Assembly (NCBI RefSeq): GCF_964204865.1
Contig: NC_135261.1
Location: 10,664,001 to 10,728,000 of the forward strand
Length of the DNA: 64,000 bases
From: Styela clava
Lineage: Eukaryota; Chordata; Ascidiacea; Stolidobranchia; Styelidae
Direction: 5' to 3'
Shown here: positions 282 to 62,270 of the stretch, piece by piece
Layout: each line of letters opens with the position of its first letter
How positions within the stretch are numbered: the stretch's first letter is position 1
Notes under the pieces: model-generated
Told to the model about the DNA's origin: nothing
What the model saw: the letters and a program-made list of their open reading frames with translations, nothing else
Database searches by the model: none
Position numbers and translations under genes: made by a program

Positions 282-2937
282 TTATATACATCTGACATAT
301 CTGAAGCATCCGTCATACTTGACAATGCGGTAGGATTTGTACGTGCTGAAATAGGATTATGTTAAGCAGGAAAAACTCTGATTCAATTCAATTACAAAAC
401 TAACTAAGACTTACCAGAATTGCTTGTAAGCAAAGCAATAAGAAGAAGACGTGGGCAACACGCATCGATAATTATAGGTGATCTTAAGTTCTCGAAGTTG
501 CACACAGTATGTACATTTGAATCCACAAGCATAATGCTCCTTCAGATCACTGAGATGTTTCCCCCAGTCTTGTTCAATCTTGGTCACTATGTCGGTGTTT
601 TCTTTCTTCGTTTTCTCTTCGTAGGCGTTGTACAATTTTTGAGCTTCGTTGCCGAGTGGTTTGCCCATATAAAATTCAAGCAGTTTCAAATACTGTTCTG
701 TTCTGAGTTGGGCAATCTAAACATTTTTGCAAGAATTATATAAATATAAATTCATATTTTAAACAAAATGTCACGCTGTCAACCTTTTCCAATCTCTCTG
801 TAATGCATTTCAGTCTTCTTTCAAACCGTTCCGATAAGCACTTTACGTAGCTTTCGATCTTTGTCTTTCTGGTAGATAGGCATGTTGCATATTGTGCAAC
901 ATATTTGGCAATTCGCTCATTGAACCTTTGCTCGTGGCAACCAATCATGTCAGTGTATGCCTTGGAAGCGCGAGAAAGGCGCTCCCCAAGCTTTTTTTCA
1001 TACTCTGCAATCGCTTTTTTCTTTTGTTCGTCCAATGATTTCTGATATTCTTCTAGGGAAGTCAAGTTATCTGCTGTGATGCAATTGTTTCTAGAAATAT
1101 AAAGAGCAACTGAGCCAAATGTCATCTTATGATATACTTATTCACCGTGACACTTACTGTACTAAGTAATTTGCTTTATAATACGTTATCAAACATTTGT
1201 GTCTCTCATCAACAATCTTTTTGAAAGACTCCAATGCCTTCTGATTAGTTATTTTTGCTTGCGCATACCAATCATCATATGTTTTCTTCATGGATTCAAT
1301 TATTGTCTTAGCTTTATTATCAAGGTCTTCTTTGAATTTTTGTTCGGTGATATTAACTTCATCTTAAGTGTAATAAAAACATTAAATTCAGTGAAACATA
1401 AAGACAATTGAGCAAACGTTTTAGGACTTGCACTAACCGGTTACACATTTTTTCAGCTCCTTGTATTTGATTGTCCTGTATTGAAATTTGTAGGTCAAGA
1501 AACGGAAGCAACTTCTTTGGGTAGTAATTTTGTACGTCCACCATTTCCCGATACTTCGACTATAAAGAAAAAACCAAGAGTAGAATTATATTGATATATA
1601 CTATTTACCTGCCATTTATTTATAATTACCAATTGGTGTAAAATTGACTTCTGCCAAAACAGAGAGTTCCGCCGTATGCGCACTGATAAGCGCATGCGTA
1701 GCTTTTTACAAGTTCTCCGATAGCTGCAGTTAGCTTCGCGGTGTATTCGTCCAACTGTGTTTGATATGATTGAGTTTCTTTAGTTTTGAAAGCCTCCAAA
1801 ACTGCATTAACGTCTGCTCCGTTCCAATCCTCAGAACCTAGATGTAAAGTTCCATTGTGAATAAAATTATGTTCAAAATTCGAAAGAAAAGAAAAAACTT
1901 ACAATGGGCTCTGTATATCAGTTTTTGGAACACTTGAGATCTCTGTTTTACGATGGCTTCCATGACACATTTATATTTTGTCTCGTACTCTGTCACGCGC
2001 TTTTCGAGAGCTTTTTTGTATTCTTCTATTTTAGCTAAACGAGTGGTGAAGCATGTAACAGACCTGGAATAAGAAAGGTTCGAATTTTAGTTCTCTTGTA
2101 AACGAACTTTTAAACTTACAGTAACTCACCTCTCGACAAGTTTTTCGTGATATTCCAGCACACAAGCGTATCTTTTCTTCATGTCATCGTTATAATTTTT
2201 TTTTGCTTCTTCCAACAAAGAATCTAGTTTTGTATTATAATTTTCAATAGCCTTCTTGTTGGTCTGCTTCATTTCTTCTGACTCTTCCTGCAATCCCGTA
2301 ATTCTAAAAATTCACGATGTTAGTAATTTGAGTAAGAAAAGAATACGTAAGAAAGAATTGTAAGAAGAAATACAAACTTCAAATACTGCTTTGTATATTC
2401 CTCGATAGCGTCTTCGTGCTTTGTCTTTGCCTCGGTATTTTGATTTGTTGCAGTTTCAACCCAATCTTCATATTTTTGTTGCATATCAAGATCTATTTTA
2501 TCGGCCACTTCTTTCAATTGTTTTTTAACTTCAGTTTCAAAAACGGCGACCGTCATCTCTATAATACAAAAATTCATGCCTCAAAATGTGTGTTTCTCAA
2601 ATTATTCAGAAAAACTTATCAAGATACAATTCAGAATTACCTTCGAATCCATCCTCTGTGCATTTCTCTCCTGGATAGCTCTTCAGAACATTAGAGTAAT
2701 ATTTCGTTGTGAACCAAGCAGGACAGTAGTAGCTTCGGAAACTGTAGCATCCGTAATTTATTCGGTAAAATTGTCCGACATTGTAAGTAACATATCCGCA
2801 ATGACTCGGTTGGTATAGAGCGGCATTGGCAACCTGTAAACATTATAATTTAGGTAAAATTGATAAAAAGAAACGAAGGGCACTATTTATCAAATACTTA
2901 CGGCCAAACAGCCTAGAAGTAACAATAGAATCTTCAT
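282..2937 (-). CDS. Secreted coiled-coil, Tyr/Cys-rich protein, copy 1 (11 exons)
   Basis: Exons, 5' to 3': 2902-2937, 2641-2833, 2378-2558, 2130-2303, 1903-2063, 1630-1837, 1438-1559, 1185-1362, 784-1090, 415-716, 282-345. All introns are GT..AG, 66-94 bp, and phases agree throughout, giving 641 residues. Residues 1-16 (MKILLLLLGCLAVANA) form a signal peptide. Residues 17-77 are Tyr-rich with Cys 24, 41, 49 and 70. Residues ~77-250 are Lys/Glu-rich coiled coil with a YEDW motif. Residues ~290-355 are Cys/Tyr-rich (SYACAYQCAY). Residues ~360-560 are a second coiled coil with YDDW, and ~575-641 a second Cys/Tyr-rich tail (HYACGFKCTYC). The start is the only ATG before the signal peptide. The family is unknown to me; an extracellular structural, adhesive or mucus role is a guess from composition. 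Copy-specific: Asp in KIDLDMQ, Asn in KKENTD and Phe in EQRFNER. Confidence 0.85.
1615..1620 (-). terminator. Internal AATAAA directly after exon 6
   Basis: This AATAAA lies 6 nt past the TAA (1626-1628) that is reached only if intron 6 is not spliced. It could end a short transcript whose protein stops after ...FYTNW. It is present in every unit at the same relative place. Confidence 0.35.
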
Positions 2938-2994
2938 GATCGTCTTTATTCAGGTTGTTGAACAACGACTTGTCGAATCCCTGTTGTGCGCTTG

Positions 2995-3001
2995 TAGATA
3001 T
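2995..3001 (-). promoter_or_regulatory. Degenerate TATA-like box, gene copy 1
   Basis: Units 2-7 read TATATAT here on the plus strand, 58 nt above the start codon, but unit 1 reads TAGATAT. The change may weaken the core promoter of this copy. The position implies a 5' leader of roughly 25-30 nt. Confidence 0.45.
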
Positions 3002-3473
3002 AGGATTTCTTCCCTCTCTTCAAAATCCAAGTACCAGCTCCTTTATGTTTTAATGTTACTTTAGTGAGCTCTTATCTCGACCACAATGATTGAAATTGTC
3101 AGAAGCGCAACAAATGTTTACCTCGAATCGCTATGCCGTAGTTATAACAGAAAGTTCAGTTTATTTCATTTAAATCTTCCATCATTGTGCATTTAGTAAA
3201 AAGGTAATTGTTAATTAATCTTTTTATTGTGAAGTACATTATTTTTCAACTAATAAGATACCACTTCGACATAGCTATTCACTTCATCAGTACGCATTGT
3301 TTATATAAATATAACTTCAGGGTTGAAGATAGTTAGTCAATAGCTATTACATCCAATTGAACAGCATTACTAAAAAAATAGAAGTTTTTCAACAACACCT
3401 TATTTTTATTATTCACTCTTTGGTATACGCATACAATTGTTTTAACAGCAAAATGTACGACTTTTGAATCATA

Positions 3474-3513
3474 GATTGATTGACGTTCTCGTGCTTGACA
3501 GCGTCAATCAATC
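3474..3513. repeat. Perfect 12-bp inverted repeat, 16-nt loop
   Basis: The arms are GATTGATTGACG and CGTCAATCAATC. The same stem-loop occurs in each unit at 11447, 19522, 27591, 35668, 43734, 54837 and 62804. It also lies inside a short plus-strand open frame that I do not accept as a gene. Confidence 0.7.
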
Positions 3514-4208: not shown

Positions 4209-4484
4209 GATTGATTGACGTTGTCATTCTCCGAGAATACTGAATCCCAAAAGAATATTTCAACTACTTACCTAGCATCTAGTGGACAGTTTCATATCGG
4301 ACGCCTTTAAATATATGGACTTCAAGATATTTTTTTGTAATTCGAAACAAATTTCCAAACATCATCAATATTTCCCGGATTCTCCTCATGCATAAATATT
4401 TCTATTTCTGAAAATATTCAATATGCTAATGTGCAGCTCGACTTTTGACGCGCGTCAAATATTGTTTGACAACGTCAATCAAAC
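4209..4484. mobile_element. Possible MITE-like element with 18-bp terminal inverted repeats
   Basis: The left arm GATTGATTGACGTTGTCA (4209-4226) matches the reverse complement of 4467-4484 at 17 of 18 positions. Just inside the right arm is the perfect palindrome TTTGACGCGCGTCAAA (4444-4459). There is no ORF and no clear target duplication. The left arm shares its first 14 bases with the stem-loop at 3474, so this may be a family of related short elements. It recurs in each unit. Confidence 0.4.
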
Positions 4485-5727: not shown

Positions 5728-5786
5728 AACGGATCCACCGATTCACCGAACGGATTCGGACAGGCCGAATGGATTCACCGATTTTC
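5728..5786. repeat. Short run of degenerate GGATTC / CCGAACGGATTC repeats
   Basis: CGGATCC, CGATTC, CGGATTC, TGGATTC and their partners alternate with CCGAA and CACCG in about 60 bp, giving direct and inverted repetition. The run is kept in every unit, and units 2-7 read CGGATTC where unit 1 has TGGATTC. Confidence 0.5.
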
Positions 5787-6746
5787 ACAACGAGTAATGC
5801 AAGATCAGACTCTCAACATTCATTTATTTTTATTTTTTCCTGCCTGCTTTCACTTTTATGGTTGAACTTGAATGTCCAGGAAGAATAACCTATTATATTG
5901 ATAACTGATAATAATACGTCTTTTGGCTTAAATATATTATTTAATTACCTCATTAATTAATTACCTTTTCTTTAATGTACTTTATTTCAGCTATCTGAGA
6001 ATCACTCTACAATACATGAACTAACAACCTCTATTGACTTGAATAAAATACACGCAGTCAATACATCTTGCTATATGAAATCCTATTTCATAAATATATA
6101 TACCAAATAGGCTATGATGGATGCTTACCTGCCCTTTCACCCCAATTAATTCATTTATATATTTTACCATATTTCCATGCATATTTTTAGGTTGTTTTTT
6201 TGAGTTGCGCCTAAAAGTGGTTTGCGTGTTTAAAACTATAATTTCACATGACATTTAACGGTATTAATTCCGAATGTCAACCCAGGTAGATCCAAATTTT
6301 AACTTCGTTCCATGACTCCAATATTAGGAAATCGTTGCGTCTTCAAAAAGTTTGGGTTACTACTGTTTGATGAATAAAGTTGAATAAAATCCAGAAAAAC
6401 ACATTTAGTGTTACAACAACGTACAATGTTTTTGAAATTTGTTCCGGAGAATACAAGCAAACGAACAGTAACCCCAACACCTGTTTTGCATAGTCGTTCC
6501 CGAAGTTGGCGATTAATCATCAGTGGCTTTAAAAAACTATAATGACGTCATATTGGATATAACGCATTGAGCCAAATAAAAAAATAACGTTGTACTTAAG
6601 TTTTCAATTTCTAAACTGAATTTATTAAGATCGGATGCCCTTGATTCTTCTGATTATATTCTCCAAGTTTTTGTTACTCTAAGTTTAGGTAATGTTTCCT
6701 AATTATCAATAAAATACCAGTCTTTCGAAACAGGAATGTACTAGAG

Positions 6747-7590
6747 CAGGGGTCAGCCCACGGCCCGCGGGCCAGATCCTGTCCGCGGAGTAAAATAATC
6801 CAGCACGCCATACTTTACTGAATTATAGAAATCGGCTGTTTTGATGATTATATTCTTTACGTAACAGAATTTATTTTAAGTCACGTGTAGACTAATTTAT
6901 ACTATAACCTAACAAGTAAATAAGTAGGCTACTCGTTTATTAATTATAATTAGACAAATGGCAACAAACCGCAGAATAGTTTATGCTAAGTGCAAAGGGT
7001 TCAATGGCGCAGAAAATATTTAAATGAGTTTTATTGAGATGAAGAAATAAATTTATATTCCTTTTTAAGAAATGTATCTTTGCTTGATTTTTATAAAAAA
7101 GTATCTTCTTGAAAGAAAACCTTACCCCAATTTGAGTGACAAATCATGCGAATAACTTTCTATCGATGTTTGGAAGTACATATGTACGCAAACAATTATT
7201 TCAGAAAACGAACATTACAAAGAACAAGCTGAGAATTCGGATTAGTGATGCCCATTTATAAAATGTTTTTATCTTGGCTTCATTCAGTGTCCCATTCAGA
7301 AAACGTTTCCCATACAGTGACGTTGAAAACGTATTAAGCGGGTTGCAACAAAAAGTGTCACATTAAATGTCATTTGTAATCTTTCTTCTCAAGTAAAACG
7401 ATTAAGTTGAGTTCACGAGTTGTCGCAGTCTTCGCACGCTGCTTAAATCCTAAAATGTCAACATCTGATCTGATCAAAAAATTGCGATTAATCGGCCATA
7501 CCTTCGGTTTTTAACTTTCTAAAAATATGTGACACCCAACAAGACTCGCAACCTTTAGTTTTGGTCCGCGAGCGACAAAAGGTTGCCGAC
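6747..7590. mobile_element. hAT-like terminal-repeat remnant, unit 1
   Basis: The left end starts CAGGGGTCAGCC followed by a GC-rich block (CGGCCCGCGGGCCAGATC). The right end, read inverted, is GTCGGCAACCTTTTGTCGC then TCGCGGACCAAA. CAGGGGTCGGCAACC-type termini are typical of many animal hAT elements. There is no transposase ORF, the outermost right bases have decayed, and I find no 8-bp target duplication. Confidence 0.55.
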
Positions 7591-7905
7591 ATCATAAAGT
7601 TTTCTTATATGGTGCACAAATATCACCAGTATGTTATTAAGATATACTAATTGTGGAATTTGGCAATAATATGATTGTTCTGAGACATTCTTTTTAATAT
7701 AATTCCATTTCTCATCCAACATTTGTCATTTCTGAACCTAACAATTTGACCTGTATTTCCCATTTTGATTTCTTGTGCATCGCTCAGAGTTTCATCTCAA
7801 GTTATCAATTTTTAGAAGTACAATTTCAATGAGAAGTTTGAAAGTATCGGTTGTGCTTTAATAGGGATTTGGGAAATGAATTTTCGGCACAACAGCTTTT
7901 TCTAC

Positions 7906-7938
7906 TATTTGCACCCTGGCGTTACCGGGTCGCAAATA
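7906..7938. other. Hairpin with TATTTGC / GCAAATA arms
   Basis: The arms enclose ACCC...GGGT, so the stem could reach 11 pairs or more. It lies about 320 nt past the stop of gene copy 2. Units 5 (TTTGGACC) and 8 (TTTCCACC) have a base change in the stem, so pairing is not strictly kept. Confidence 0.35.
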
Positions 7939-8254: not shown

Positions 8255-10910
8255 TTATATACATCTGACATATCTGAAGCATCCGTCATACTTGACAATG
8301 CGGTAGGATTTGTACGTGCTGAAATAGGATTATGTTAAACAGGAAAAACTCTGATTCAATTCAATTACAAAACTAACTAAGACTTACCAGAATTGCTTGT
8401 AAGCAAAGCAATAAGAAGAAGACGTGGGTAACACGCATCGATAATTATAGGTGATCTTAAGTTCTCGAAGTTGCACACAGTATGTACATTTGAATCCACA
8501 AGCATAATGCTCCTTCAGATCACTGAGATGTTTCCCCCAGTCTTGTTCAATCTTGGTCACTATGTCGGTGTGTTCTTTCTTCGTTTTCTCTTCGTAGGCG
8601 TTGTACAATTTTTGAGCTTCGTTGCCGAGTGGTTTGCCCATATAAAATTCAAGCAGTTTCAAATACTGTTCCGTTCTGAGTTGGGCAATCTAAAAATTTT
8701 TGCAAGAATTATATAAATATAAATACATATTTTAAACAAAATGTCACGTAGTCAACCTTTTCCAATCTCTCTGTAATGCATTTCAGTCTTCTTTCAAACC
8801 GTTCCGATGAGCACTTTACGTAGCTTTCGATCTTTGTCTTTCTGGTAGATAGGCATGTTGCATATTGTGCAACATATTTGGCAATTCGCTCATTGAGCCT
8901 TTGCTCGTGGCAACCAATCATGTCAGTGTATGCCTTGGAAGCGCGAGAAAGGCGCTCCCCAAGCTTTTTTTCATACTCTGCAATCGCTTTTTTCTTTTGT
9001 TCGTCCAATGATTTCTGATATTCTTCTAGGGAAGTCAAGTTATCTGCTGTGATGCAATTGTTTCTGGAAATATAAAGAGCAACTGAGCCAAATGTCATCT
9101 TATGATATACTTATTCACCGTGACACTTACTGTACTAAGTAATTTGCTTTATAATACGTTATCAAACATTTGTGTCTCTCATCAACAATCTTTTTGAAAG
9201 ACTCCAATGCCTTCTGATTAGTTATTTTTGCTTGCGCATACCAATCATCATATGTTTTCTTCATGGATTCAATTATTGTCTTAGCTTTATTATCAAGGTC
9301 TTCTTTGAATTTTTGTTCGGTGATATTAACTTCATCTTAAGTGTAATAAAAACATTAAGTTCAGTGAAACATAAAGACAATTGAGCAAACGTTTTAGGAC
9401 TTGCACTAACCGGTTACACATTTTTTCAGCTCCTTGTATTTGATTGTCCTGTATTGAAATTTGTAGGTCAAGAAACGGAAGCAACTTCTTTGGGTAGTAA
9501 TTTTGTACGTCCACCATTTCCCGATACTTCGACTATAAAGAAAAAACCAAGAGTAGAATTATATTGATATATACTATTTACCTGCCATTTATTTATAATT
9601 ACCAATTGGTGTAAAATTGACTTCTGCCAAAACAGAGAATTCCGCCGTATGCGCACTGATAAGCGCATGCGTAGCTTTTTACAAGTTCTCCGATAGCTGC
9701 AGTTAGCTTCGCGGTGTATTCGTCCAACTGTGTTTGATATGATTGAGTTTCTTTAGTTTTGAAAGCCTCCAAAACTGCATTAACGTCTGCTCCGTTCCAA
9801 TCCTCAGAACCTAAATGTAAAGTTCCATTGTGAATAAAATTATGTTCAAAATTCGAAAGAATAGAAAAAACTTACAATGGGCTCTGTATATCAGTTTTTG
9901 GAACACTTGAGATCTCTGTTTTACGATGGCTTCCATGACACATTTATAGTTTGTCTCGTACTCTGTCACGCGCTTTTCGAGAGCTTTTTTGTATTCTTCT
10001 ATTTTAGCTAAACGAGTGGTGAAGCATGTAACAGACCTGAAATAAGAAAGGTTCGAATTTTAGTTCTCTTGTAAACGGACTTTTAAACTTACAGTAACTC
10101 ACCTCTCGACAAGTTTTTCGTGATATTCCAGCACACAAGCGTATCTTTTCTTCATGTCATCGTTATAATTTTTTTTTGCTTCTTCCAACAATGAATCTAG
10201 TTTTGTATTAAAATTTTCAATAGCCTTCTTGTTGGTCTGCTTCATTTCTTCTGACTCTTCCTGCAATCCCGTAATTCTAAAAATTCACGATGTTAGTAAT
10301 TTGAGTAAGAAAAGAATACGTAAGAAAGAATTGTAAGAAGAAATACAAACTTCAAATACTGCTTTGTATATTCCTCGATAGCGTCTTCGTGCTTTGTCTT
10401 TGCCTCGGTATTTTGATTTGTTGCAGTTTCAACCCAATCTTCATATTTTTGTTGCATATCAAGATATATTTTATCGGCCACTTCTTTCAATTGTTTTTTA
10501 ACTTCAGTTTCAAAAACGGCGACCGTCATCTCTATAATACAAAAATTCATGCCTCAAAATGTGTGTTTCTCAAATTATTCAGCAAAACATATCAAGATAC
10601 AATTCAGAAGTACCTTCGAATCCATCCTCTGTGCATTTCTCTCCTGGATAGCTCTTCAGAACATTAGAGTAATATTTCGTTGTGAACCAAGCAGGACAGT
10701 AGTAGCTTCGGAAACTGTAGCATCCGTAATTGATTCGGTAAAATTGTCCGACATTGTAAGTAACATATCCACAATGACTCGGTTGGTATAGAGCGGCATT
10801 GGCAACCTGTAAACATTATAATTTAGGCAAAATTGATAAAAAGAAACGAAGGGCACTATTTATCAAATACTTACGGCCAAACAGCCTAGAAGTAACAATA
10901 AAATCTTCAT
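8255..10910 (-). CDS. Secreted coiled-coil, Tyr/Cys-rich protein, copy 2 (11 exons)
   Basis: Exons: 10875-10910, 10614-10806, 10351-10531, 10103-10276, 9876-10036, 9603-9810, 9411-9532, 9158-9335, 8757-9063, 8388-8689, 8255-8318. The structure is collinear with copy 1 with no indel, so 641 residues are predicted. The exon 2 donor is GTACTT rather than GTAATT, still a usable GT site. Replacements include Tyr in KIYLDMQ, ENFNTK for ENYNTK in exon 4, Lys to Asn in TNYKCV of exon 5, and Leu to Ser in KCSSERF of exon 9. The Cys positions of the N-terminal domain and both Cys/Tyr-rich segments are kept. Function is not recognised. Confidence 0.85.
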
Positions 10911-16329: not shown

Positions 16330-18985
16330 TTATATACATCTGACATATCTGAAGCATCCGTCATACTTGACAATGCGGTAGGATTTGTACGTGCTGAAAT
16401 AGGATTATGTTAAACAGGAAAAACTCTGATTCAATTCAATTACAAAACGAACTAAGCCTTACCAGAATTGCTTGTAAGCAAAGCAATAAGAAGAAGACGT
16501 GGGCAACACGCATCCATAATTATAGGTGATCTTAAGTTCTCGAAGTTGCACACAGTATGTACATTTGAATCCACAAGCATAATGCTCCTTCAGATCACTG
16601 AGATGTTTCCCCCAGTCTTGTTCAATCTTGGTCACTATGTCGGTGTGTTCTTTCTTCGTTTTCTCTTCGTAGGCGTTGTACAATTTTTGAGCTTCGTTGC
16701 CGAGTGGTTTGCCCATATAAAATTCAAGCAGTTTCAAATACTGTTCCGTTCTGAGTTGGGCAATCTAAACATTTTTGCAAGAATTATATAAATATAAATA
16801 CATATTTTAAACAAAATTTCACACTGTCAACCTTTTCCAATCTCTCTGTAATGCATTTCAGTCTTCTTTCAAACCCTTCCGATAAGCACTTTACGTAGCT
16901 TTCGATCTTTGTCTTTCTGGTAGATAGGCATGTTGCATATTGTGCAACATATTTGGCAATTCGCTCATTGAGCCTTTGCTCGTGGCAACCAATCATGTCA
17001 GTGTATGCCTTGGAAGCGCGAGAAAGGCGCTCCCCAAGCTTTTTTTCATACTCTGCAATCGCTTTTTTCTTTTGTTCGTCCAATGATTTCTGATATTCTT
17101 CTAGTGAAGTCAAGTTATCTGCTGTGATGCAATTGTTTCTGGAAATATAAAGAGCAACTGAGCCAAATGTCATCTTATGATATACTTATTCACCGTGACA
17201 CTTACTGTACTAAGTAATTTGCTTTATAATACGTTATTAAACATTTGTGTCTCTCATCAACAATCTTTTTGAAAGACTCCAATGCCTTCTGATTAGTTAT
17301 TTTTGCTTGCGCATACCAATCATCATATGTTTTCTTCATGGATTCAATTATTGTCTTAGCTTTATTATCAAGGTCTTCTTTGAATTTTTGTTCGGTGATA
17401 TTAACTTCATCTTAAGTGTAAGAAAATCATTAAATTCAGTGAAACATAAAGACAATTGAGCAAACGTTTTAGGACTTGCACTAACCGGTTTCACATTTTT
17501 TCAGCTCCTTGTATTTGATTGTCCTGTATTGGAATTTGTAGGTCAAGAAACGGAAGCAACTTCTTTGGGTGGTAATTTTGTACGTCCACCATTTCCCGAT
17601 ACTTCGGCTATAAAGAAAAAACCAAGAGTAGAATTATATTGATATATACTATTTACCTAACATTTATTTATAATTACCAATTGGTGTAAAATTGACTTCT
17701 GCCAAAACAGAGAGTTCCGCCGTATGCGCACTGATAAGCGCATGCGTAGCTTTTTACAAGTTCTCCGATAGCTGCAGTTAGCTTCGCGGTGTATTCGTCC
17801 AACTGTGTTTGATATGATTGAGTTTCTTTAGTTTTGAAAGCCTCCAAAACTGCATTAACGTCTGCTCCGTTCCAATCCTCAGAACCTAAATGTAAAGTTC
17901 CATTGTGAATAAAATTATGTTCAAAATTCGAAAGAATAGAAAAAACTTACAATGGGCTCTGTATATCAGTTTTTGGAACACTTGAGATCTCTGTTTTACG
18001 ATGGCTTCCATGACACATTTATATTTTGTCTCGTACTCTGTCACGCGCTTTTCGAGAGCTTTTTTGTATTCTTCTATTTTAGCTAAACGAGTGGTGAAGC
18101 ATGTAACAGACCTGAAATAAGAAAGGTTCGAATTTTAGTTCTCTTGTAAACGGACTTTTAAACTTACAGTAACTCACCTCTCGACAAGTTTTTCGTGATA
18201 TTCCAGCACACAAGCGTATCTTTTCTTCATGTCATCGTTATAATTTTTTTTTGCTTCTTCCAACAATGAATCTAGTTTTGTATTATAATTTTCAATAGCC
18301 TTCTTGTTGGTCTGCTTCATTTCTTCTGACTCTTCCTGCAATCCCGTAATTCTAAAAATTCACGATGTTAGTAATTTGAGTAAGAAAAGAATACGTAAGA
18401 AAGAATTGTAAGAAGAAATACAAACTTCAAATACTGCTTTGTATATTCCTCGATAGCGTCTTCGTGCTTTGTCTTTGCCTCGGTATTTTGATTTGTTGCA
18501 GTTTCAACCCAATCTTCATATTTTTGTTGCATATCAAGATATATTTTATCGGCCACTTCTTTCAATTGTTTTTTAACTTCAGTTTCAAAAACGGCGACCG
18601 TCATCTCTATAATACAAAAATTCATGCCTCAAAATGTGTGTTTTTCAAATTATTCAGCAAAACATATCAAGATACAATTCAGAATTACCTTCGAATCCAT
18701 CCTCTGTGCATTTCTCTCCTGGATAGCTCTTCAGAACATTAGAGTAATATTTCGTTGTGAACCAAGCAGGACAGTAGTAGCTTCGGAAACTGTAGCATCC
18801 GTAATTGATTCGGTAAAATTGTCCGACATTGTAAGTAACATATCCACAATGACTCGGTTGGTATAGAGCGGCATTGGCAACCTGTAAACATTATAATTTA
18901 GGCAAAATTGATAAAAAGAAACGAAGGGCACTATTTATCAAATACTTACGGCCAAACAGCCTAGAAGTAACAATAAAATCTTCAT
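16330..18985 (-). CDS. Secreted coiled-coil, Tyr/Cys-rich protein, copy 3 (11 exons)
   Basis: Exons: 18950-18985, 18689-18881, 18426-18606, 18178-18351, 17951-18111, 17678-17885, 17486-17607, 17233-17410, 16832-17138, 16463-16764, 16330-16393. The exon 10 donor is GTAAGG. Exon 7 differs from copy 1 at several sites. Three or more changes are silent in the frame chosen here (TGT/TGC, ACT/ACC, TTT/TTC) and one is Val to Glu before the exon end (KKCETD), which supports that frame. Exon 9 has SEGFERR, and exon 10 has Gly for Arg after ITYNY. The reading frame is intact throughout. Confidence 0.85.
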
Positions 18986-40548: not shown

Positions 40549-43197
40549 TTATATACATCTGACATATCTGAAGCATCCGTCATACTTGACAATGCGGTAG
40601 GATTTGTACGTGCTGAAATAGGATTATGTTAAACAGGAAAAACTCTGATTCAATTCAATTACAAAACTAACTAAGACTTACCAGAATTGCTTGTAAGCAA
40701 AGCAATAAGAAGAAGACGTGGGCAACACGCATCGATAATTATAGGTGATCTTAAGTTCTCGAAGTTGCACACAGTATGTACATTTGAATCCACAAGCATA
40801 ATGCTCCTTCAGATCACTGAGATGTTTCCCCCAGTCTTGTTCAATCTTGGTCACTATGTCGGTGTGTTCTTTCTTCGTTTTCTCTTCGTAGGCGTTGTAC
40901 AATTTTTGAGCTTCGTTGCCGAGTGGTTTGCCCATATAAAATTCAAGCAGTTTCAAATACTGTTCCGTTCTGAGTTGGGCAATCTAAACATTTTTGCAAG
41001 AATTATATAAATATAAATACATATTTTAAACAAAATGTCACGCTGTCAACCTTTTCCAATCTCTCTGTAATGCATTTCAGTCTTCTTTCAAACCGTTCCG
41101 ATAAGCACTTTACATAGCTTTCGATCTTTGTATTTCTGGTAGATAGGCATGTTGCATATTGTGCAACATATTTGGCAATTCGCTCATTGAGCCTTTGCTC
41201 GTGGCAACCAATCATGTCAGTGTATGCCTTGGAAGCGCGAGAAAGGCGCTCCCCAAGCTTTTTTTCATACTCTGCAATCGCTTTTTTCTTTTGTTCGTCC
41301 AATGATTTCTGATATTCTTCTAGGGAAGTCAAGTTATCTGCTGTGATGCAATTGTTTCTGGAAATATAAAGAGCAACTGAGCCAAATGTCATCTTATGAT
41401 ATACTTATTCACCGTGACACTTACTGTACTAAGTAATTTGCTTTATAATACAATATCAGACATTTGTGTCTCTCATCAACAATCTTTTTGAAAGACTCCA
41501 ATGCCTTCTGATTAGTTATTTTTGCTTGCGCATACCAATCATCATATGTTTTCTTCATGGATTCAATTATTGTCTTAGCTTTATTATCAAGGTCTTCTTT
41601 GAATTTTTGTTCGGTGATATTAACTTCATCTTAAGTGTAATAAAAACATTAAATTCAGTGAAACATAAAGACAATTGAGCAAACGTTTTAGGACTTGCAC
41701 TAACCGGTTACACATTTTTTCAGCTCCTTGTATTTGATTGTCCTGTATTGAAATTTGTAGGTCAAGAAACGGAAGCAACTTCTTTGGGTAGTAATTTTGT
41801 ACGTCCACCATTTCCCGATACTTCGACTATAAAGAAAAAACCAAGAGTAGAATTATATTGATATATACTATTTACCTGCCATTTATTTATAATTACCAAT
41901 TGGTGTAAAATTGACTTCTGCCAAAACAGAGAGTTCCGCCGTATGCGCACTGATAAGCGCATGCGTAGCTTTTTACAAGTTCTCCGATAGCTGCAGTTAG
42001 CTTCGCGGTGTATTCGTCCAACTGTGTTTGATATGATAAAGTTTCTTTAGTTTTGAAAGCCTCCAAAACTGCATTAACGTCTGCTCCGTTCCAATCTTCA
42101 GAACCTAAATGTAAAGTTCCATTATGAATAAAAGTATGTGCAAAATTCGAAAGAATAGAAAAAACTTACAATGGGCTCTGTATATGAGTTTTTGGAACAC
42201 TTCAGATCTTTGTTTTACGATGGCTTCCATGACACATTTATATTTTGTCTCATACTCTGTCACGCGCTTTTCGAGAGCTTTTTTGTATTCTTCTATTTTA
42301 GCTAAACGAGTGTTGAAGCATGTAACAGACCTGAAATAAGAAAGGTTCGAATTTTTTGTTCTCTTGTAAACGAACTTTTGAACTTACAGTAACACACCTC
42401 TCGACAAGTTTTTTGTGATATTCCTGCACACAAGCGAATCTTTTCTGCATGTCATCGTTATAATTTTTTTTTGCTTCTTCCAACAATGAATCTAGTTTTG
42501 TATTATAATTTTCAATAGCCTTCTTGTTGGTCTCCTTCATTTCTTCTGACTCTTCCTGCAATCCCGTAATTCTAAAAATTCACGATGTTAGTAATTTGAG
42601 TAAGAAAAGAATACGTAAGAAAGAATTGTAAGAAGAAATACAAACTTCAAATACTGCTTTGCATATTCCTCGATAGCGTCTTCGTGCTTTGTCTTTGCCT
42701 CGGTATTTTGATTTGTTGCAGTTTCAACCCAATCCCCCTTTTTTTGTTGCATATCAAGATATATTTTATCGGCCACTTCTTTCAATTGTTTTTCAACTTC
42801 AGTTTCAAAAACGGCCACCGTCATCTCTATAATACAAAAAATCATGCCTCAAAATGTGTGTTTCTCAAATTATTCAGAAAAACATACAATTCAGAATTAC
42901 CTTCGAATCCATCCTCTGTGCATTTCTCTCCTGGATAGCTCTTCAGAACATTAGAGTAATATTTCGTTGTGAACCAAGCAGGACAGTAGTAGCTTCGGAA
43001 ACTGTAGCATCCGTAATTGATTCGGTAAAATTGTCCGACATTGTAAGTAACATATCCACAATGACTCGGTTGGTATAGAGCGGCATTGGCAACCTGTAAA
43101 CATTATAATTTAGGCAAAATTGATAAAAAGAAACGAAGGGCACTATTTATCAAATACTTACGGCCAAACAGCCTAGAAGTAACAATAAAATCTTCAT
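40549..43197 (-). CDS. Secreted coiled-coil, Tyr/Cys-rich protein, copy 6 (11 exons)
   Basis: Exons: 43162-43197, 42901-43093, 42646-42826, 42398-42571, 42170-42330, 41897-42104, 41705-41826, 41452-41629, 41051-41357, 40682-40983, 40549-40612. The last two bases of exon 8 are TT instead of AC, so residue 418 becomes Leu; the GTATTA donor itself is kept. Exon 9 has STRNTK for STRKTK, and exon 3 has EVEKQ. The gene is intact despite the transposon ~2.2 kb upstream of its start. Confidence 0.85.
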
Positions 43198-45431: not shown

Positions 45432-45455
45432 GGGGAAAGGCAGGTTAGTTGATGC
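45432..45455 (+). repeat. Left terminal inverted repeat of the pogo-like element
   Basis: GGGGAAAGGCAGGTTAGTTG pairs with the right end at 48446-48469 with two mismatches in the first 20 bases. The match extends a few bases further. Confidence 0.88.
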
Positions 45456-45803
45456 TGTAGTTTAGATGATACAGCGCTTCTCACGGCCGTGCAATGCACT
45501 TTAAGAAACTAATGCGCCACCTGGTGTTTGGCTAGAATATGATCTTCCTTTCTGTTAGTCGTCTGACGATGTTGGTTGCAGCACGTGTAAAATTTTCGAA
45601 AAAAATCAATTTTTGAGATCTGGAGTGAAAACGTCAAATCAAGGTAAATTGATTATTTTTTCAGGCATTATAAATGAGCGATGCAAGCGAGTATTTCCTT
45701 GCAGTAGTGTATGATATCGCTTACATAACAGCCTACATGTTTCTGGATACTGATTTGATTTCTTCCCACTACGGGCCTTTTTTTCAAAATGGCCACAGGT
45801 TGA

Positions 45804-45852
45804 CTAGTTGATACAATCGTGGTTCCATTAGTTGATACGTGTATCGACTAAC
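45804..45852. repeat. Subterminal AGTTGATAC repeats
   Basis: TAGTTGATAC occurs at 45805-45814 and 45829-45838, with an inverted GTATCGACTAAC at 45841-45852. Related inverted copies GTATCAAC lie at 48226 and in the right terminal repeat. They resemble the TIR sequence AGTTGAT and may be transposase binding sites. Confidence 0.5.
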
Positions 45853-45991
45853 CCTGTTATTTATTCCATGTATTTTTTTAGCATATTTTTCAGCAAATAT
45901 ATTTTCAGACTTTCTTTTAACCGGCTTTTATGGTTTGCAGCATTGTCAATATTTTTACGCTGCCAATATTGTTTTCAACGTATTTTAGGTG

Positions 45992-47301
45992 ATGCCTCAG
46001 TTCTAGAGAAGAAAAACAAACAGAGCCATAAGAACTCCCCCGGATGTGATGTCGAGGGCGGCTGACGATGTTGTTCGCGGGCGATCATTGAGGAGTGTAG
46101 CTGAAGCATTTGGCATCGATAAAATGACTTTGTCTCGTTTTATAGCCAAGCGCAAAAATAATCCTAACGCAATTACAGGTTACGCTGCTGTTGCTCATGC
46201 ACATTATGTTATTCCTCAGCAAATGGAAGAAGATCTGGGAAATCATGTCAAACGATTGGCCGACATGTTTTTTGGACTCTCTCTTGAAACAGTGTTGTAA
46301 ACTAGCTTATGAATTTACATTTCAAAACCAGCTGTATATGCCATTGTCTTGGAAAATCAACAAAAAAGCGGGAAAAGCTTGGTGGCTAGGGTTCAAAAAA
46401 CGACAAAATCTTTCCATACGGACTCCAGAGGCAACTTCACTCGGAAGGGCGACTGCATTTAATCGTCACACGGTTGGTGAATTTTTCGACAACTTAGCAC
46501 AGGTCATGGATGTGGACGATTTTCACCCTGAAGATATTTACAATCTCGATGAAACCGGGTGCACCACTGTTCAAACCCCATCTGATATTGTTACAGCCAA
46601 GGGTAAAAAACAAGTGGGTGCAGCTACGTCTGCTGAGCGTGGTGAACTGGTTACGGTAGTCTACACCATCTGCGCCTCTGGTAATGTGCTTCCACCTATG
46701 TTTATATTTCCGCGCGTAAACTTCCACAACCACTTTATCATTGAAGGGCCACCGGGCTGCATTGGACAAGCAACAAAGTCTGGCTAGATTAATGAAGAAC
46801 TTTTTCTCGTTTATCTAGAACATCTGGTGCGCCAGACTCGTTGTACTCCCGAAAGAAAAATTCTTTTGATTTTGGATAACCACGAGTCTCATATTTCTTT
46901 ACGTGCTGTTGAGATGGCAAGATCCAATGGAGTAGTTATGCTTACTTCACCACCTCACACATCTCATCGATTGCAACCGCTTGATAAAACGGTGTATGGT
47001 CCTTTCAAAGCCAGTTATAACAGAGCGATGGAGAGTTGGCTACGTAGTCATGCTGGGAAAACTGTTACAATATATGATGTTCCTGGCATTGTAAAAGAGG
47101 CTCAAATGTCAGCAATGACATCGAGGAATATTCTATCTGGATTTCAAAGCACTGGGATATACCCTTTCAATCGCGATATTTTTACTGATGCAGATTTTGC
47201 AGCTGCAACTTTAACGGACCGAGAAGTCGTTGGCGTTGATCGTAATGAACCAGGACAGTCCTCAAAATGCACGGATCCACTGACCCCATGCTGTAGTACT
47301 G

Positions 47302-47337
<36 letters not shown>

Positions 47338-48037
47338 CTGAAAATCGTTGCACTCCTAAACCGAGGGTTGATGAATCAGCGTTTCAGTTACAGAAAACGG
47401 GCAACCCAGATCCCGACTTATCAAATTCTTGCTCGTCGTACGTATCGCCAAGCGAGATTCAAAAAATCCCAAAAGCTCCACAAAGAAAGACCAAGCGCTC
47501 CCGAAAAAAGGAAAGACAAAGATTTTAACATCTACGCCTGTATTAAAAGAGATTTCCCTAGAGAATGAAAAAAGAAAGAAAAACAAGATATGCAGTTCGA
47601 GAAAAAAACTTTTCGCTACAAAAAATAGGAAAGTTCGCCCCCACAATACTAGCAATAGTTCAGAAGAGGAGCGTGCTGTTGTTAGATATGATGATACGAC
47701 TGATGAAGATGAATTATCTGCAGAAGAAATTATGGAAGGTGATTACGTGGTTGTCAAAGTTGACGGGAGATCTAGAAATGTACATTACATCGCTCGTATA
47801 GATTTGCTGGAAGATAATGAGTATGAGGGAGTTTTTCTAAAGAAAGTTTCTAGTCGAGTTTCTGTCGAAGGAGAGCACACTGGTTTTGTATTTGTTCCAA
47901 ATGAAGATGATGGGGCTTCATTCTCGCATGAGGACATAATATGCAGACTACCTCAGCCAACAATTCTTGCAGGATCAGCTCGGAGATGTGTTCGACTTAA
48001 ATTTGATTGCGATTTGAGTAAATGGAATGTAAATTAG
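45992..48037 (+). pseudogene. Decayed pogo/Tigger-like DDE transposase
   Basis: The likely start is the ATG at 45992. The reading continues after a stop at codon 5 (TAG 46004-46006) into RTPPDVMSRA and a helix-turn-helix (SLRSVAEAFGIDKMTLSRF), as in CENP-B/Tigger N-termini. A frameshift near 46291-46296 leads into the DDE domain. Acidic residues are in NLDETGC (46548), LILDNHESH (46875) and QPLDKTVYG (46983), with 35 residues between the last two. TAG at 46785-46787 replaces an expected sense codon, probably Trp. A 33-A tract (47302-47334) adds polylysine in frame. A second frameshift at the A-run 47504-47509 precedes the C-terminal domain ending near DLSKWNVN. With two stops and two frameshifts it cannot make a full protein. 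Its strand is opposite to the array genes. Confidence 0.9.
47295..47344. repeat. 33-nt poly(A) tract flanked by an 11-bp direct repeat
   Basis: AGTACTGAAAA occurs at 47295-47305 and 47334-47344, overlapping both ends of an uninterrupted A33 (47302-47334). The added length is 39 nt, a multiple of three. It could be a slippage product or a short poly(A) insertion with target duplication. Confidence 0.75.
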
Positions 48038-48445
48038 AGGTTGTCTACCACCATCCAGCAAACCATTTCGTTAAATGAGTTATTTGTTCTTTTTTATTTT
48101 TTTTGCCGCCGTTTCTGGTGAAACTTTCTCTCTCGTTCTTTTGAAACAAGTTATAAGTGATATTTGTGCCTCGTTCCATTTCATTTTTGGAGTAATTGCC
48201 TGCTTTTAAAAACTTTATGCAGAGTGTATCAACAAAACTACCACTGCGCATCAAGTAACCTTACCAGGCAGGATATTTGATACGTTTGACAAGAAAACTT
48301 TAGCGACTGTAAGCGCTAAGTTAGGAAATGACTGAGAGCCCCATTTTGTGGTCATATGTGAGGGACCTATAAATGAATAAATAGGACAAACCAGAACGGC
48401 GATTATTCGAACGGTATTTTTTATGGATCAGTAAAACTAAATTAT

Positions 48446-48469
48446 GTATCAACTTACCTGCCTCTCCCC
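48446..48469 (-). repeat. Right terminal inverted repeat of the pogo-like element
   Basis: On the minus strand it begins GGGGAGAGGCAGGTAAGTTG, followed by ATAC. It abuts the TA duplicate at 48470-48471. Confidence 0.88.
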
Positions 48470-51651: not shown

Positions 51652-54300
51652 TTATATACATCTGACATATCTGAAGCATCCGTCATACTTGACAATGCGG
51701 TAGGATTTGTACGTGCTGAAATAGGATTATGTTAAACAGGAAAAACTCTGATTCAATTCAATTACAAAACTAACTAAGACTTACCAGAATTGCTTGTAAG
51801 CAAAGCAATAAGAAGAAGACGTGGGCAACACGCATCGATAATTATAGGTGATCTTAAGTTCTCGAAGTTGCACACAGTATGTACATTTGAATCCACAAGC
51901 ATAATGCTCCTTCAGATCACTGAGATGTTTCCCCCAGTCTTGTTCAATCTTGGTCACTATGTCGGTGTGTTCTTTCTTCGTTTTCTCTTCGTAGGCGTTG
52001 TACAATTTTTGAGCTTCGTTGCCGAGTGGTTTGCCCATATAAAATTCAAGCAGTTTCAAATACTGTTCCGTTCTGAGTTGGGCAATCTAAACATTTTTGC
52101 AAGAATTATATAAATATAAATACATATTTTAAACAAAATGTCACGCTGTCAACCTTTTCCAATCTCTCTGTAATGCATTTCAGTCTTCTTTCAAACCGTT
52201 CCGATAAGCACTTTACATAGCTTTCGATCTTTGTCTTTCTGGTAGATAGGCATGTTGCATATTGTGCAACATATTTGGCAATTCGCTCATTGAGCCCTTG
52301 CTCGTGGCAACCAATCATGTCAGTGTATGCCTTGGAAGCGCGAGAAAGGCGCTCCCCAAGCTTTTTTTCATACTCTGCAATCGCTTTTTTCTTTTGTTCG
52401 TCCAATGATTTCTGATATTCTTCTAGGGAAGTCAAGTTATCTGCTGTGATGCAATTGTTTCTGGAAATATAAAGAGCAACTGAGCCAAATGTCATCTTAT
52501 GATATACTTATTCACCGTGACACTTACTGTACTAAGTAATTTGCTTTATAATACGTTATCAAACATTTGTGTCTCTCATCAACAATCTTTTTGAAAGACT
52601 CCAATGCCTTCTGATTAGTTATTTTTGCTTGCGCATACCAATCATCATATGTTTTCTTCATGGATTCAATTATTGTCTTAGCTTTATTATCAAGGTCTTC
52701 TTTGAATTTTTGTTCGGTGATATTAACTTCATCTTAAGTGTAATAAAAACATTAAATTCAGTGAAACATAAAGACAATTGAGCAAACGTTTTAGGACTTG
52801 CACTAACCGGTTACACATTTTTTCAGCTCCTTGTATTTGATTGTCCTGTATTGAAATTTGTAGGTCAAGAAACGGAAGCAACTTCTCTGGGTAGTAATTT
52901 TGTACGTCCACCATTTCCCGATACTTCGACTATAAAGAAAAAACCAAGAGTAGAATTATATTGATATATACTATTTACCTGCCATTTATTTATAATTACC
53001 AATTGGTGTAAAATTGACTTCTGCCAAAACAGAGAGTTCCGCCGTATGCGCACTGATAAGCGCATGCGTAGCTTTTTACAAGTTCTCCGATAGCTGCAGT
53101 TAGCTTCGCGGTGTATTCGTCCAACTGTGTTTGATATGATAAAGTTTCTTTAGTTTTGAAAGCCTCCAAAACTGCATTAACGTCTGCTCCGTTCCAATCC
53201 TCAGAACCTAAACGTAAAGTTCCATTATGAATAAAAGTATGTGCAAAATTCGAAAGAATAGAAAAAACTTACAATGGGCTCTGTATATGAGTTTTTGGAA
53301 CACTTCAGATCTTTGTTTTACGATGGCTTCCATGACACATTTATATTTTGTCTCATACTCTGTCACGCGCTTTTCGAGAGCTTTTTTGTATTCTTCTATT
53401 TTAGCTAAACGAGTGTTGAAGCATGTAACAGACCTGAAATAAAAAAGGTTCGAATTTTTTGTTCTCTTGTAAACGAACTTTTGAACTTACAGTAACACAC
53501 CTCTCGACAAGTTTTTTGTGATATTCCTGCACACAAGCGAATCTTTTCTGCATGTCATCGTTATAATTTTTTTTTGCTTCTTCCAACAATGAATCTAGTT
53601 TTGTATTATAATTTTCAATAGCCTTCTTGTTGGTCTCCTTCATTTCTTCTGACTCTTCCTGCAATCCCGTAATTCTAAAAATTCACGATGTTAGTAATTT
53701 GAGTAAGAAAAGAATACGTAAGAAAGAATTGTAAGAAGAAATACAAACTTCAAATACTGCTTTGCATATTCCTCGATAGCGTCTTCGTGCTTTGTCTTTG
53801 CCTCGGTATTTTGATTTGTTGCAGTTTCAACCCAATCCCCCTTTTTTTGTTGCATATCAAGATATATTTTATCGGCCACTTCTTTCAATTGTTTTTTAAC
53901 TTCAGTTTCAAAAACGGCCACCGTCATCTCTATAATACAAAAAATCATGCCTCAAAATGTGTGTTTCTCAAATTATTCAGAAAAACATACAATTCAGAAT
54001 TACCTTCGAATCCATCCTCTGTGCATTTCTCTCCTGGATAGCTCTTCAGAACATTAGAGTAATATTTCGTTGTGAACCAAGCAGGACAGTAGTAGCTTCG
54101 GAAACTGTAGCATCCGTAATTGATTCGGTAAAATTGTCCGACATTGTAAGTAACATATCCACAATGACTCGGTTGGTATAGAGCGGCATTGGCAACCTGT
54201 AAACATTATAATTTAGGCAAAATTGATAAAAAGAAACGAAGGGCACTATTTATCAAATACTTACGGCCAAACAGCCTAGAAGTAACAATAAAATCTTCAT
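51652..54300 (-). CDS. Secreted coiled-coil, Tyr/Cys-rich protein, copy 7 (11 exons)
   Basis: Exons: 54265-54300, 54004-54196, 53749-53929, 53501-53674, 53273-53433, 53000-53207, 52808-52929, 52555-52732, 52154-52460, 51785-52086, 51652-51715. Exon 3 has the GDW form but keeps EVKKQ, so it resembles copy 4 rather than 5 and 6. Exon 7 carries a CAA to CAG change, silent in the chosen frame. Exon 9 has HEQGLNER where copies 2-6 have HEQRLNER. No disabling change is seen. Confidence 0.85.
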
Positions 54301-59502: not shown

Positions 59503-59508
59503 TTTATT
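59503..59508 (-). terminator. AATAAA poly(A) signal, gene copy 8
   Basis: First canonical signal after the stop codon at 59614-59616. Confidence 0.65.
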
Positions 59509-59613
59509 GTCAATATCAGCAGATGGTAAAGGCAATTGGCATAAATTCATCAGCCTAATCTAAAACTAAGATATTTCCATGGTCGTTTGTCGTTCGGTTG
59601 ATGTCGGCGGTGT

Positions 59614-62270
59614 TTATATACATCTGACATATCTGAAGCCTCCGTCATACTTGACAATGCGGTAGGATTTGTACGTGCTGAAATAGGATTATGTTAAACA
59701 GGAAAAACTCTGATTCAATTCAATTACAAAACTAACTAAGACTTACCAGAATTGCTTGTAAGCAAAGCAATAAGAAGAAGACGTGGGCAACACGCATCCA
59801 TAATTATAGGTGATCTTAAGTTCTCGAAGTTGCACACAGTATGTACATTTGAATCCACAAGCATAATGCTCCTTCAGATCACTGAGATGTTTCCCCCAGT
59901 CTTGTTCAATCTTGGTTACTATGTCGGTGTGTTCTTTCTTCGTTTTCTCTTCGTAGGCGTTGTACAATTTTTGAGCTTCGTTGCCGAGTGGTTTGCCCAT
60001 ATAAAATTCAAGTAGTTTCAAATACTGTTCCGTTCTGAGTTGGGCAATCTAAACATTTTTGCAAGAATTATATAAATATAAATACATATTTTAAACAAAA
60101 TTTCACACTGTCAACCTTTTCCAATCTCTCTGTAATGCATTTCAGTCTTCTTTCAAACCGTTCCGATAAGCACTTTACGTAGCTTTCGATCTTTGTCTTT
60201 CTGGTAGATAGGCATGTTGCATATTGTGCAACATATTTGGCAATTCGCTCATTGAGCCTTTGCTCGTGGCAACCAATCATGTCAGTGTATGCCTTGGAAG
60301 CGCGAGAAAGGCGCTCCCCAAGCTTTTTTTCATACTCTGCAATCGCTTTTTTCTTTTGTTCGTCCAATGATTTCTGATATTCTTCTAGTGAAGTCAAGTT
60401 ATCTGCTGTGATGCAATTGTTTCTAGAAATATAAAGAGCAACTGAGCCAAATGTCATCTTATGATATACTTATTCACCGTGACACTTACTGTACTAAGTA
60501 ATTTGCTTTATAATACGTTATTAAACATTTGTGTCTCTCATCAACAATCTTTTTGAAAGACTCCAATGCCTTCTGATTAGTTATTTTTGCTTGCGCATAC
60601 CAATCATCATATGTTTTCTTCATGGATTCAATTATTGTCTTAGCTTTATTATCAAGGTCTTCTTTGAATTTTTGTTCGGTGATATTAACTTCATCTTAAG
60701 TGTAATAAAAACATTAAATTCAGTGAAACATAAAGACAACTGAGCAAACATTTTAGGACTTGCACTAACCGGTTTCACATTTTTTCAGCTCCTTGTATTT
60801 GATTGTCCTGTATTGGAATTTGTAGGTCAAGAAACGGAAGCAACTTCTTTGGGTGGTAATTTTGTACGTCCACCATTTCCCGATACTTCGACTATAAAGA
60901 AAAAACCAAGAGTAGAATTATATTGATATATACAATGTACCTGCCATTTATTTATAATTACCAATTGGTGTAAAATTGACTTCTGCCAAAACAGAGAGTT
61001 CCGCCGTATGCGCACTGATAAGCGCATGCGTAGCTTTTTACAAGTTCTCCGATAGCTGCAGTTAGCTTCGCGGTGTATTCGTCCAACTGTGTTTGATATG
61101 ATTGAGTTTCTTTAGTTTTGAAAGCCTCCAAAACTGCATTAACGTCTGCTCCGTTCCAATCCTCAGAACCTAAATGTAAAGTTCCATTGTGAATAAAAGT
61201 ATGTGCAAAATTCGAAAGAATAGAAAAAACTTACAATGGGCTCTGTATATGAGTTTTTGGAACACTTCAGATCTCTGTTTTACGATGGCTTCCATGACAC
61301 ATTTATATTTTGTTTCGTACTCTGTCACGCGCTTTTCGAGAGCTTTTTTGTATTCTTCCATTTTAGCTAAACGAGTGGTGAAGCATGTAACAGACCTGAA
61401 ATAAGAAAGGTTCGAATTTTTTGTTCTCTTGTTAACGGACATTTAAACTTACAGTAACCCACCTCTCGACAAGTTTTTCGTGATATTCCAGCACACAAGC
61501 GTATCTTTTCTTCATGTCATCGTTATAATTTTTTTTTGCCTCTTCCAACAATGAATCTAGTTTTGTATTATAATTTTCAATAGCCTTCTTGTTGGTCTCC
61601 TTCATTTCTTCTGACTCTTCCTGCAATCCCGTAATTCTAAAAATTCACGATGTTAGTAATTTGAGTAAGAAAAGAATACGTAAGAAAAAATTGTAAGAAG
61701 AAATACAAACTTCAAATACTGCTTTGTATATTCCTCGATAGCGTCTTCGTGCTTTGTCTTTGCCTCGGTATTTTGATTTGTTGCAGTTTCAACCCAATCA
61801 TCATATTTTTGTTGCATATCAAGATATATTTTATCGGCCACTTCTTTCATTTGTTTTTTAACTTCAGTTTCAAAAACGGCGACCGTCATCTCTATAATAC
61901 AAAAATTCATGCCTCAAAATGTGTGTTTCTCAAATTATTCAGAAAAACATATTAAGATACAATTCAGAATTACCTTCGAATCCATCCTCTGTGCATTTCT
62001 CTCCTGGATAGCTCTTCAGAACATTAGAGTAATATTTCGTTGTGAACCAAGCAGGACAGTAGTAGCTTTGGAAACTGTAGCATCCGTAATTGATTCGGTA
62101 AAATTGTCCGACATTGTAAGTAACATATCCGCAATGACTCGGTTGGTATAGAGCGGCATTGGCAACCTGTAAACATTATAATTTAGGCAAAATTGATAAA
62201 AAGAAACGAAGGGCACTATTTATCAAATACTTACGGCCAAACAGCCTAGAAGTAACAATAAAATCTTCAT
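59614..62270 (-). CDS. Secreted coiled-coil, Tyr/Cys-rich protein, copy 8 (11 exons)
   Basis: Exons: 62235-62270, 61974-62166, 61711-61891, 61463-61636, 61235-61395, 60962-61169, 60770-60891, 60517-60694, 60116-60422, 59747-60048, 59614-59677. Intron 2 is full length and intron 4 has the extra base of copies 4-7. Exon 2 has Arg45 to Gln. Exon 3 reads KKQMKEV and KYDDW, the latter identical to the motif of exon 8. Exon 4 combines KET with MKKRYACVLEYHEK, and exon 5 has AKMEEYKK. Exons 7-10 share variants with copy 3 (VT to ET, Gly for Arg in exon 10). The gene is intact at the array edge. Confidence 0.85.

Follow-up and report, generated by a model that had tools for sequence, protein, structure and literature searches.

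The stretch of Styela clava DNA analyzed here, 64,000 nucleotides of contig NC_135261.1 (C16:10664001-10728000, hereafter the window) from a genome of 376,610,584 bases in 379 contigs, contains a head-to-tail array of a gene for a putatively secreted protein. The repeated unit is approximately 8.07 kb long, with seven units measuring 7,962-8,077 bp when an inserted transposon is left out, and the last unit being cut by the window end. Eight gene copies are found, all intact and all on the minus strand: c1 (282-2937), c2 (8255-10910), c3 (16330-18985), c4 (24406-27054), c5 (32483-35131), c6 (40549-43197), c7 (51652-54300), and c8 (59614-62270). The span from 282 to 62270 therefore runs from the stop codon of the first copy to the ATG of the last. 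Each copy is composed of 11 exons, with a coding sequence of 1953 nucleotides including the stop codon, and encodes 650 amino acids. An earlier note on this DNA had described eight intact tandem 11-exon genes in a single orientation, which is what we find, the orientation being that of the minus strand; the protein length of 641 residues that it gave does not hold, given that the corrected model yields 650 in every copy.

In c1, exons 1-6 occupy positions 2902-2937, 2641-2833, 2378-2558, 2130-2303, 1903-2063, and 1630-1837, and exons 7-11 occupy positions 1438-1559, 1158-1362, 784-1090, 415-716, and 282-345, all on the minus strand, and the same model applies to the other copies. The ten introns of each copy measure 65-82 bp, all of them are bounded by GT..AG, and their phases are the same in the eight copies. 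A TATA-like hexamer is located 63-65 bp upstream of every ATG (TATATC at 2997-3002, minus strand, in c1; TATATA in the other seven), and the AATAAA of c1 (171-176, minus strand), 106 bp past the stop codon, has an equivalent in all eight. These signals and introns had also been reported in the earlier note. Homology between units ends at about position 63953, leaving 63953-64000 outside, and this is the upstream end of the array; in the 8.5 kb read beyond c8 (C16:10727500-10736000) there is no further gene copy. The window has a GC content of 34% and a CpG observed/expected ratio of 1.0; searches of the window for tRNA and Rfam families gave no match, and no Pfam family rose above cut-off in six additional open frames, of which three are intergenic and three run antisense to the gene.

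The differences among the copies support a coding sequence. Of 1953 coding columns, 57 vary among the eight copies and none of the changes creates a premature stop; when changes were placed uniformly at random on c1, 98% of 5000 simulations contained one or more stops. Nonsynonymous variable columns number 33 against 45.8 expected, the lowest value in the same 5000 runs being 35. Units 1-7 show 20 distinct gap events, two in introns, 18 in flanks, and none in an exon, although exons make up about a quarter of the unit length. The ratio of nonsynonymous to synonymous substitution rates (dN/dS) is 0.14-0.49 in all 28 window pairs, those within c4-c7 resting on two to eight differences, and no window pair exceeds 1. 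The exon chain is further supported by an internal duplication within the protein, described below, because this duplication aligns across the exon joints. Near-identical copies can be assembled wrongly, and the array could in principle be an assembly artefact or non-transcribed repeat DNA with fortuitous open frames. This we consider highly improbable, given the coding-like differences without premature stops or exon gaps, the presence on other chromosomes of intact paralogs that have diverged but keep these intron phases, and features that are specific to single units, for example the transposon that separates c6 from c7.

The window holds only part of the family. Array 1, on the minus strand at C16:10.610-10.726 Mb, has 14 copies of exon 9, six to the left of the window and eight inside it, and array 2, with 11 copies, is inverted on the plus strand at C16:11.376-11.497 Mb, about 650 kb away. 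The exon-9 search found a further seven copies on contig C3 and ten on C17; the other 17 of its 59 matches were weak (E above 1) and lay inside the C16 arrays. Exon 2 of the C17 type matched ten places on C17, 24 on C16, and seven on C3, and this search revealed no family member outside the arrays, its sole other match being at chance level (E=0.34). Given that the exon-2 search missed c8, these searches are not exhaustive and the copy counts are lower bounds. The two C17 sets differ. At 7.295 Mb there is an exon-2 match without an exon-9 counterpart, and at 7.274 Mb lies a copy (C17:7271000-7280900) whose matches are confined to exons 9-10, save for one short match (E=0.43); this member, at the edge of the array, is a partial one.

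Within C16, 22 of the 25 genes (17 outside the window and eight inside) are intact. Premature stops occur in the leftmost copy of array 1 (a1) and in the two rightmost copies of array 2 (b10 and b11), and the copies at the other two array ends, c8 and b1, are intact. Array 2 includes a stretch of about 16.8 kb without a copy. In the window, units 1-7 are mutually 98.0-99.6% identical when the transposon is left out, so that intact genes are carried on near-identical head-to-tail units of kilobase scale.

The copies are alike well beyond their exons. Comparison of c8 with the other seven gives divergences of 2.42% at fourfold sites, 2.60% in introns, 2.30% in the 3' flank, and 2.48% in the proximal 5' flank, rising to 8.36% in the distal 5' flank. 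The introns are thus as alike as the silent sites, which indicates conversion or exchange over the gene and not selection alone. Array 1 also contains two gene types, c1-c3 and c4-c7, which are separated by 11 fixed amino-acid differences, all within residues 106-271, and by five fixed synonymous codons, four of them within residues 80-243.

Several other elements were observed in the units. The transposon between c6 and c7 (45432-48469, plus strand) is a DNA transposon of the pogo/Tigger type (DDE_1, E=6.4e-15), flanked by TA, with similar terminal inverted repeats at both ends and an interrupted transposase frame. The unit with the transposon measures 11,103 bp, and a similar spacing, 11,067 bp, is seen at two further places in array 1; judged from spacing, this unit has probably itself been multiplied. 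In unit 1, at about 6744-7600, the ends resemble terminal repeats, CAGGGGTCAGCC and, on the other strand, GTCGGCAACC, of what we take to be the hAT family, and an old non-autonomous element may be present in the unit at this position. Motifs like TTGACRRCGTCAATCAA occur at 3495-3511, 4211-4223, and 4445-4482, and all eight copies have them in both orientations at 0.55-1.55 kb upstream of their ATG; in c8, with its flank 8% diverged, three of the four such sites searched are kept and one is absent. These motifs are possible candidates for regulatory sites.

The encoded protein is composed of a putative signal peptide followed by two helical modules framed by three Tyr/Cys-rich domains, at approximately residues 17-76, 293-357, and 589-650 (boundaries set by us). 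In c1, exon 2 (2641-2833) encodes the N-terminal Tyr/Cys-rich domain, exon 9 (784-1090) a predicted single helix of 96 residues, and exon 10 (415-716) the end of the second helical module together with the start of the C-terminal Tyr/Cys-rich domain. The signal peptide that the earlier note had claimed is legible at the N-terminus, MKILLLLLGCLAVANA, as judged by eye. Among the 650 residues there are 29 Cys and 57 Tyr. Exons 2-6 and 7-11 are an internal duplication, with a local alignment score of 222, compared with highest scores of 96 and 103 when 300 shuffles were run twice. The two helical modules are 32% identical to each other; the middle and C-terminal Tyr/Cys-rich domains are similar beyond shuffles (p 0.002), the N-terminal and middle ones weakly so (p 0.043), and the N-terminal and C-terminal ones show no similarity beyond shuffles (p 0.81).

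The earlier note had seen a Lys/Glu-rich coiled coil alternating with Tyr/Cys-rich segments. The alternation stands, and a single-sequence structure prediction of exon 9 gave one 96-residue helix, with a mean predicted local distance difference test score (pLDDT) of 92.5 and a predicted template modeling score of 0.49; a classical left-handed coiled coil is not supported. In four regions, two of them nested in the other two, the best helical periods are 3.64, 3.72, 3.66, and 3.68 residues, above the 99% shuffle level in three, with exons 4-5 below it. The best period has a power of 6.1-14.7 and a period of 3.5 one of 0.1-2.3. A fibrous protein built on classical heptads is for this reason not supported, the 3.5-residue period not being dominant and the best one lying nearer 11/3; a coiled coil of the hendecad type is a possible alternative.

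The earlier note had matched the protein to no family, and this is borne out within the libraries searched, which do not include a broad eukaryote protein collection: no Pfam or NCBIfam family was above cut-off for the window protein, and no solved structure in PDB matched it. Searches of PDB by sequence and with a three-row profile gave best values of E=0.083, 0.1, and 0.02, the last two to RPRD1B, which are not taken as homology. The ANG-1-like domain (PF25443) scored 16.1 and 18.4 bits, under its cut-off of 28.5 bits, and NCBIfam NF048001 reached 16.7 of 50 bits (E=0.0047). Searches of two paralogs against Pfam gave weak families only, among them DUF725 in one paralog (E=0.0079). Scans of viral and prokaryote contigs found no relative, three exact peptide strings were absent from the papers searched, and among the titles and abstract openings returned by a literature keyword search nothing was recognized as this family.

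One weak match recurs. The Pfam family Apolipoprotein A1/A4/E (PF01442) was found below threshold in the whole protein (E=0.002, 18.3 bits) and in the two modules taken separately (E=0.0028 and 0.001; 17.8 and 19.2 bits), none of which reaches the curated cut-off of 90 bits, while the reversed whole protein gave E=3.4. Weak matches to ApoE and ApoA-I sequences were also present in the PDB searches (E=0.27, 0.69, and 0.97). Together with the best helical period of 3.64-3.72, these matches speak for a secreted lipid- or surface-binding protein similar to exchangeable apolipoproteins, in which amphipathic helices of 11-residue periodicity would bind lipid or an interface and the Tyr/Cys-rich domains would dimerize. 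The scores of 18-19 bits are nonetheless far from the cut-off. Apolipoprotein helices are punctuated by proline, and the helical modules here hold a single one (residue 549); 29 Cys and 57 Tyr in 650 residues are also out of place, and the class-A helix pattern needs acidic residues, of which the paralog with a net charge of +227 described below has hardly any. An amphipathic periodicity of the 11-residue type may be shared with exchangeable apolipoproteins, with weak matches in both modules; Tyr/Cys-rich domains and the two-module architecture are not known there. A role of this kind seems improbable to us, and the matches to the apolipoprotein, ANG-1, NF048001, and DUF725 profiles are judged to be driven by composition or period.

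The paralogs were modeled for two of the seven C3 copies and three of the ten C17 copies, and intron phases are identical in all three groups modeled, the window gene included. Spliced alignment of the window protein on one C3 copy and one C17 copy yielded 11 exons in each, no internal stop, and a signal peptide similar to that of the window protein, at identities to it of 39% (C3) and 34% (C17). Their charge is very different. The window protein has a net charge of +21 and the C17 paralog (654 residues) of +68 to +70 in the three copies, while the C3 paralog (652 residues) has 87 Lys, 147 Arg, three Asp, and four Glu, that is, 234 basic and seven acidic residues and a net charge of +227. Where the window protein has its 88 acidic residues, C3 has a basic one at 51 positions, another kind at 31, and an acidic one at six; of the 21 positions that are acidic in both the window and C17, 13 are basic, five other, and three acidic. 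The charge resides mainly in the helices, with values for window, C17, and C3 of -7, +20, and +81 in module 1 and +7, +20, and +90 in module 2. Tyr counts are similar, 57 in the window protein and 53 in each of the paralogs, and 14 Cys columns, one of them in the signal peptide, are common to all three.

A polycation in which the Cys/Tyr nodes are retained may well be the polyanion-binding part of a cross-linked material. The 147 Arg and 87 Lys of the C3 paralog could also suit host defense or the trapping of DNA and other polyanions, where secreted polycations would kill microbes or bind extracellular DNA with the less charged paralogs as partners, and tandem amplification is frequent among defense genes. 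However, the window copies show likeness and purifying selection instead of diversification, the window paralog reaches only +21, and the long multi-domain architecture differs from antimicrobial peptides, which are short. For these reasons, we regard a defensive role as unlikely.

Constraint is not evenly distributed along the protein. Between c3 and b2, from arrays 1 and 2 respectively, the overall dN/dS is 0.39, with 0.05, 0.22, and 0.20 in the Tyr/Cys-rich domains and 0.47 and 0.74 in the helical modules, exon 2 being the most constrained part between arrays. In all four between-array pairs each Tyr/Cys-rich domain has a lower value than each helical module. In the within-array pair c3 and c5, the values are 0.44 in helix 1, 0.08 in helix 2, and 0.07 in the middle Tyr/Cys-rich domain. 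These five pairs give small counts per domain and the copies are not independent. Identity among the paralogs follows the same trend, being 40-56% in the N-terminal and middle Tyr/Cys-rich domains and 25-35% in the helices, with a weaker result for the C-terminal Tyr/Cys-rich domain (27-39%). Between copies on the same contig, the two C3 copies differ by three synonymous and no nonsynonymous changes, and C17 copies e2 and e7 by none and two, respectively; the e2/e4 pair has 10.5 synonymous changes and 23.5 nonsynonymous ones, and the e4/e7 pair 10.5 and 21.5.

Many copies can be kept for reasons other than bulk, as in ampliconic reproductive or selfish arrays, for example of seminal or egg-coat proteins. 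Members seen only in arrays, the turnover of units, the two types of array 1 with their 11 fixed differences in residues 106-271, and the looser constraint between C17 copies would all fit such arrays. The dN/dS values below 0.5 in all 28 window pairs and the low values of the Tyr/Cys-rich domains between arrays do not, and we hold this explanation to be a rather poor candidate.

The reading that we favor, with moderate confidence, is that of a dosage-amplified family of secreted fibrous proteins, which would provide a bulk extracellular material with charge-specialized paralogs and whose copies would be kept alike by exchange or conversion. That the copies are so alike and that members were seen only in arrays is in line with a demand for much product, as the earlier note had proposed, and bulk secretion from many near-identical copies is the simplest reading, although dosage itself is inferred. 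Near-identical copies would allow bulk production of a secreted protein of about 650 residues, to be assembled outside the cell, where the Tyr/Cys-rich domains would be nodes of disulfide or tyrosine cross-linking and the long amphipathic helices would serve as rods or spacers. The paralogs, at +21, about +69, and +227, would probably be differently charged components of one material, able to bind polyanions, such as sulfated polysaccharide, or each other, while unequal crossing-over and gene conversion would keep the copies alike. A more specific version is possible, but we put it forward only tentatively: a charge-graded set of one secreted scaffold, running from near-neutral to a supercharged polycation, near-constant in length, exon plan, and Tyr/Cys-rich domains, and with each version separately amplified. 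Its members would mix and self-assemble into a cross-linked fiber or coacervate-like material that binds an anionic matrix, for example the sulfated polysaccharide of the tunic, and would thus amount to a natural system of charge-tuned building blocks.

Several observations weigh against the favored reading. Between c1-c3 and c4-c7 the gene body is more diverged (introns 2.36%, fourfold sites 1.61%) than the distal 5' flank (0.86%), the reverse of what is seen for c8, which means that homogenization is not aimed at the gene. The differences between C17 copies e2 and e4 suggest looser constraint, and the value of 0.08 for helix 2 between c3 and c5 shows that the helices are not always free to change. 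The differently charged, putatively secreted members include none that is acidic, and neither an acidic family member nor an acidic partner was found. The predicted helicity comes from one exon taken as a single sequence, and the model of exon 10, which contains Tyr/Cys-rich sequence, is poor (pLDDT 48.6, helices then strands). Amphipathic helices that bind lipid would likewise be compatible with a period near 11/3, and the weak apolipoprotein matches recur below threshold.

What is unusual in this family, which has no recognized relative, is that every member found sits in an array, on three chromosomes, and that one architecture is kept by paralogs whose net charge goes from +21 to +227. If the proposed role is correct, the family could represent a new class of animal fiber, adhesive, or mucus, and would offer a natural test of charge alone tuning an extracellular protein and a case of concerted evolution that holds the terminal and middle domains while the helices change. 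A comparable charge series is not known in flounder antifreeze or cuticular genes.

As a separate observation, a bacterial-type cellulose synthase exon was detected at C9:16177300-16178100, on a contig of 23.8 Mb, with PF03552 at 26.6 bits against a cut-off of 24.7. Its best solved match, from the one exon read, is to cellulose synthase 5ej1/4hg6 (E=2.9e-21), the bacterial BcsA. Among animals, tunicates are the group known for a bacterial-type cellulose synthase gene, so that this exon points to a probable tunicate host, and such genes also occur outside animals; among 14 control genomes, PF03552 was found in three (Escherichia coli, Synechococcus elongatus, and Lactococcus lactis).

That genes of abundant secreted proteins can be amplified in tandem is already known. 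The oikosins of the larvacean house are, by description, tunicate proteins of an extracellular structure with a similar putative role (PMC3390340). The cuticular proteins of insects (PMC2793513) and the chorion proteins of the silkmoth (PMC4639761) are, like the family in the window, multigene families of extracellular structural proteins, and gene conversion and concerted evolution have been reported for the former (PMC2793513). They belong to other protein families, compared here by description, and their abstracts do not describe near-identical arrays of 11-exon genes (PMC2793513, PMC4639761). In organization, the nearest parallel would be the antifreeze arrays of flounders, with twelve repeats of 11.2 kb in the starry flounder and a repeated gene of 7.8 kb in the winter flounder, where the repeats encode almost identical helical proteins and unequal crossing-over has been suggested (PMC9122973). 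The two systems share near-identical tandem repeats of kilobase scale that carry genes for helical proteins (PMC9122973), while the flounder arrays encode small Ala-rich antifreeze proteins at one locus and the several arrays described here encode Tyr/Cys-rich proteins of about 650 residues on three chromosomes, with paralogs that have diverged in charge.

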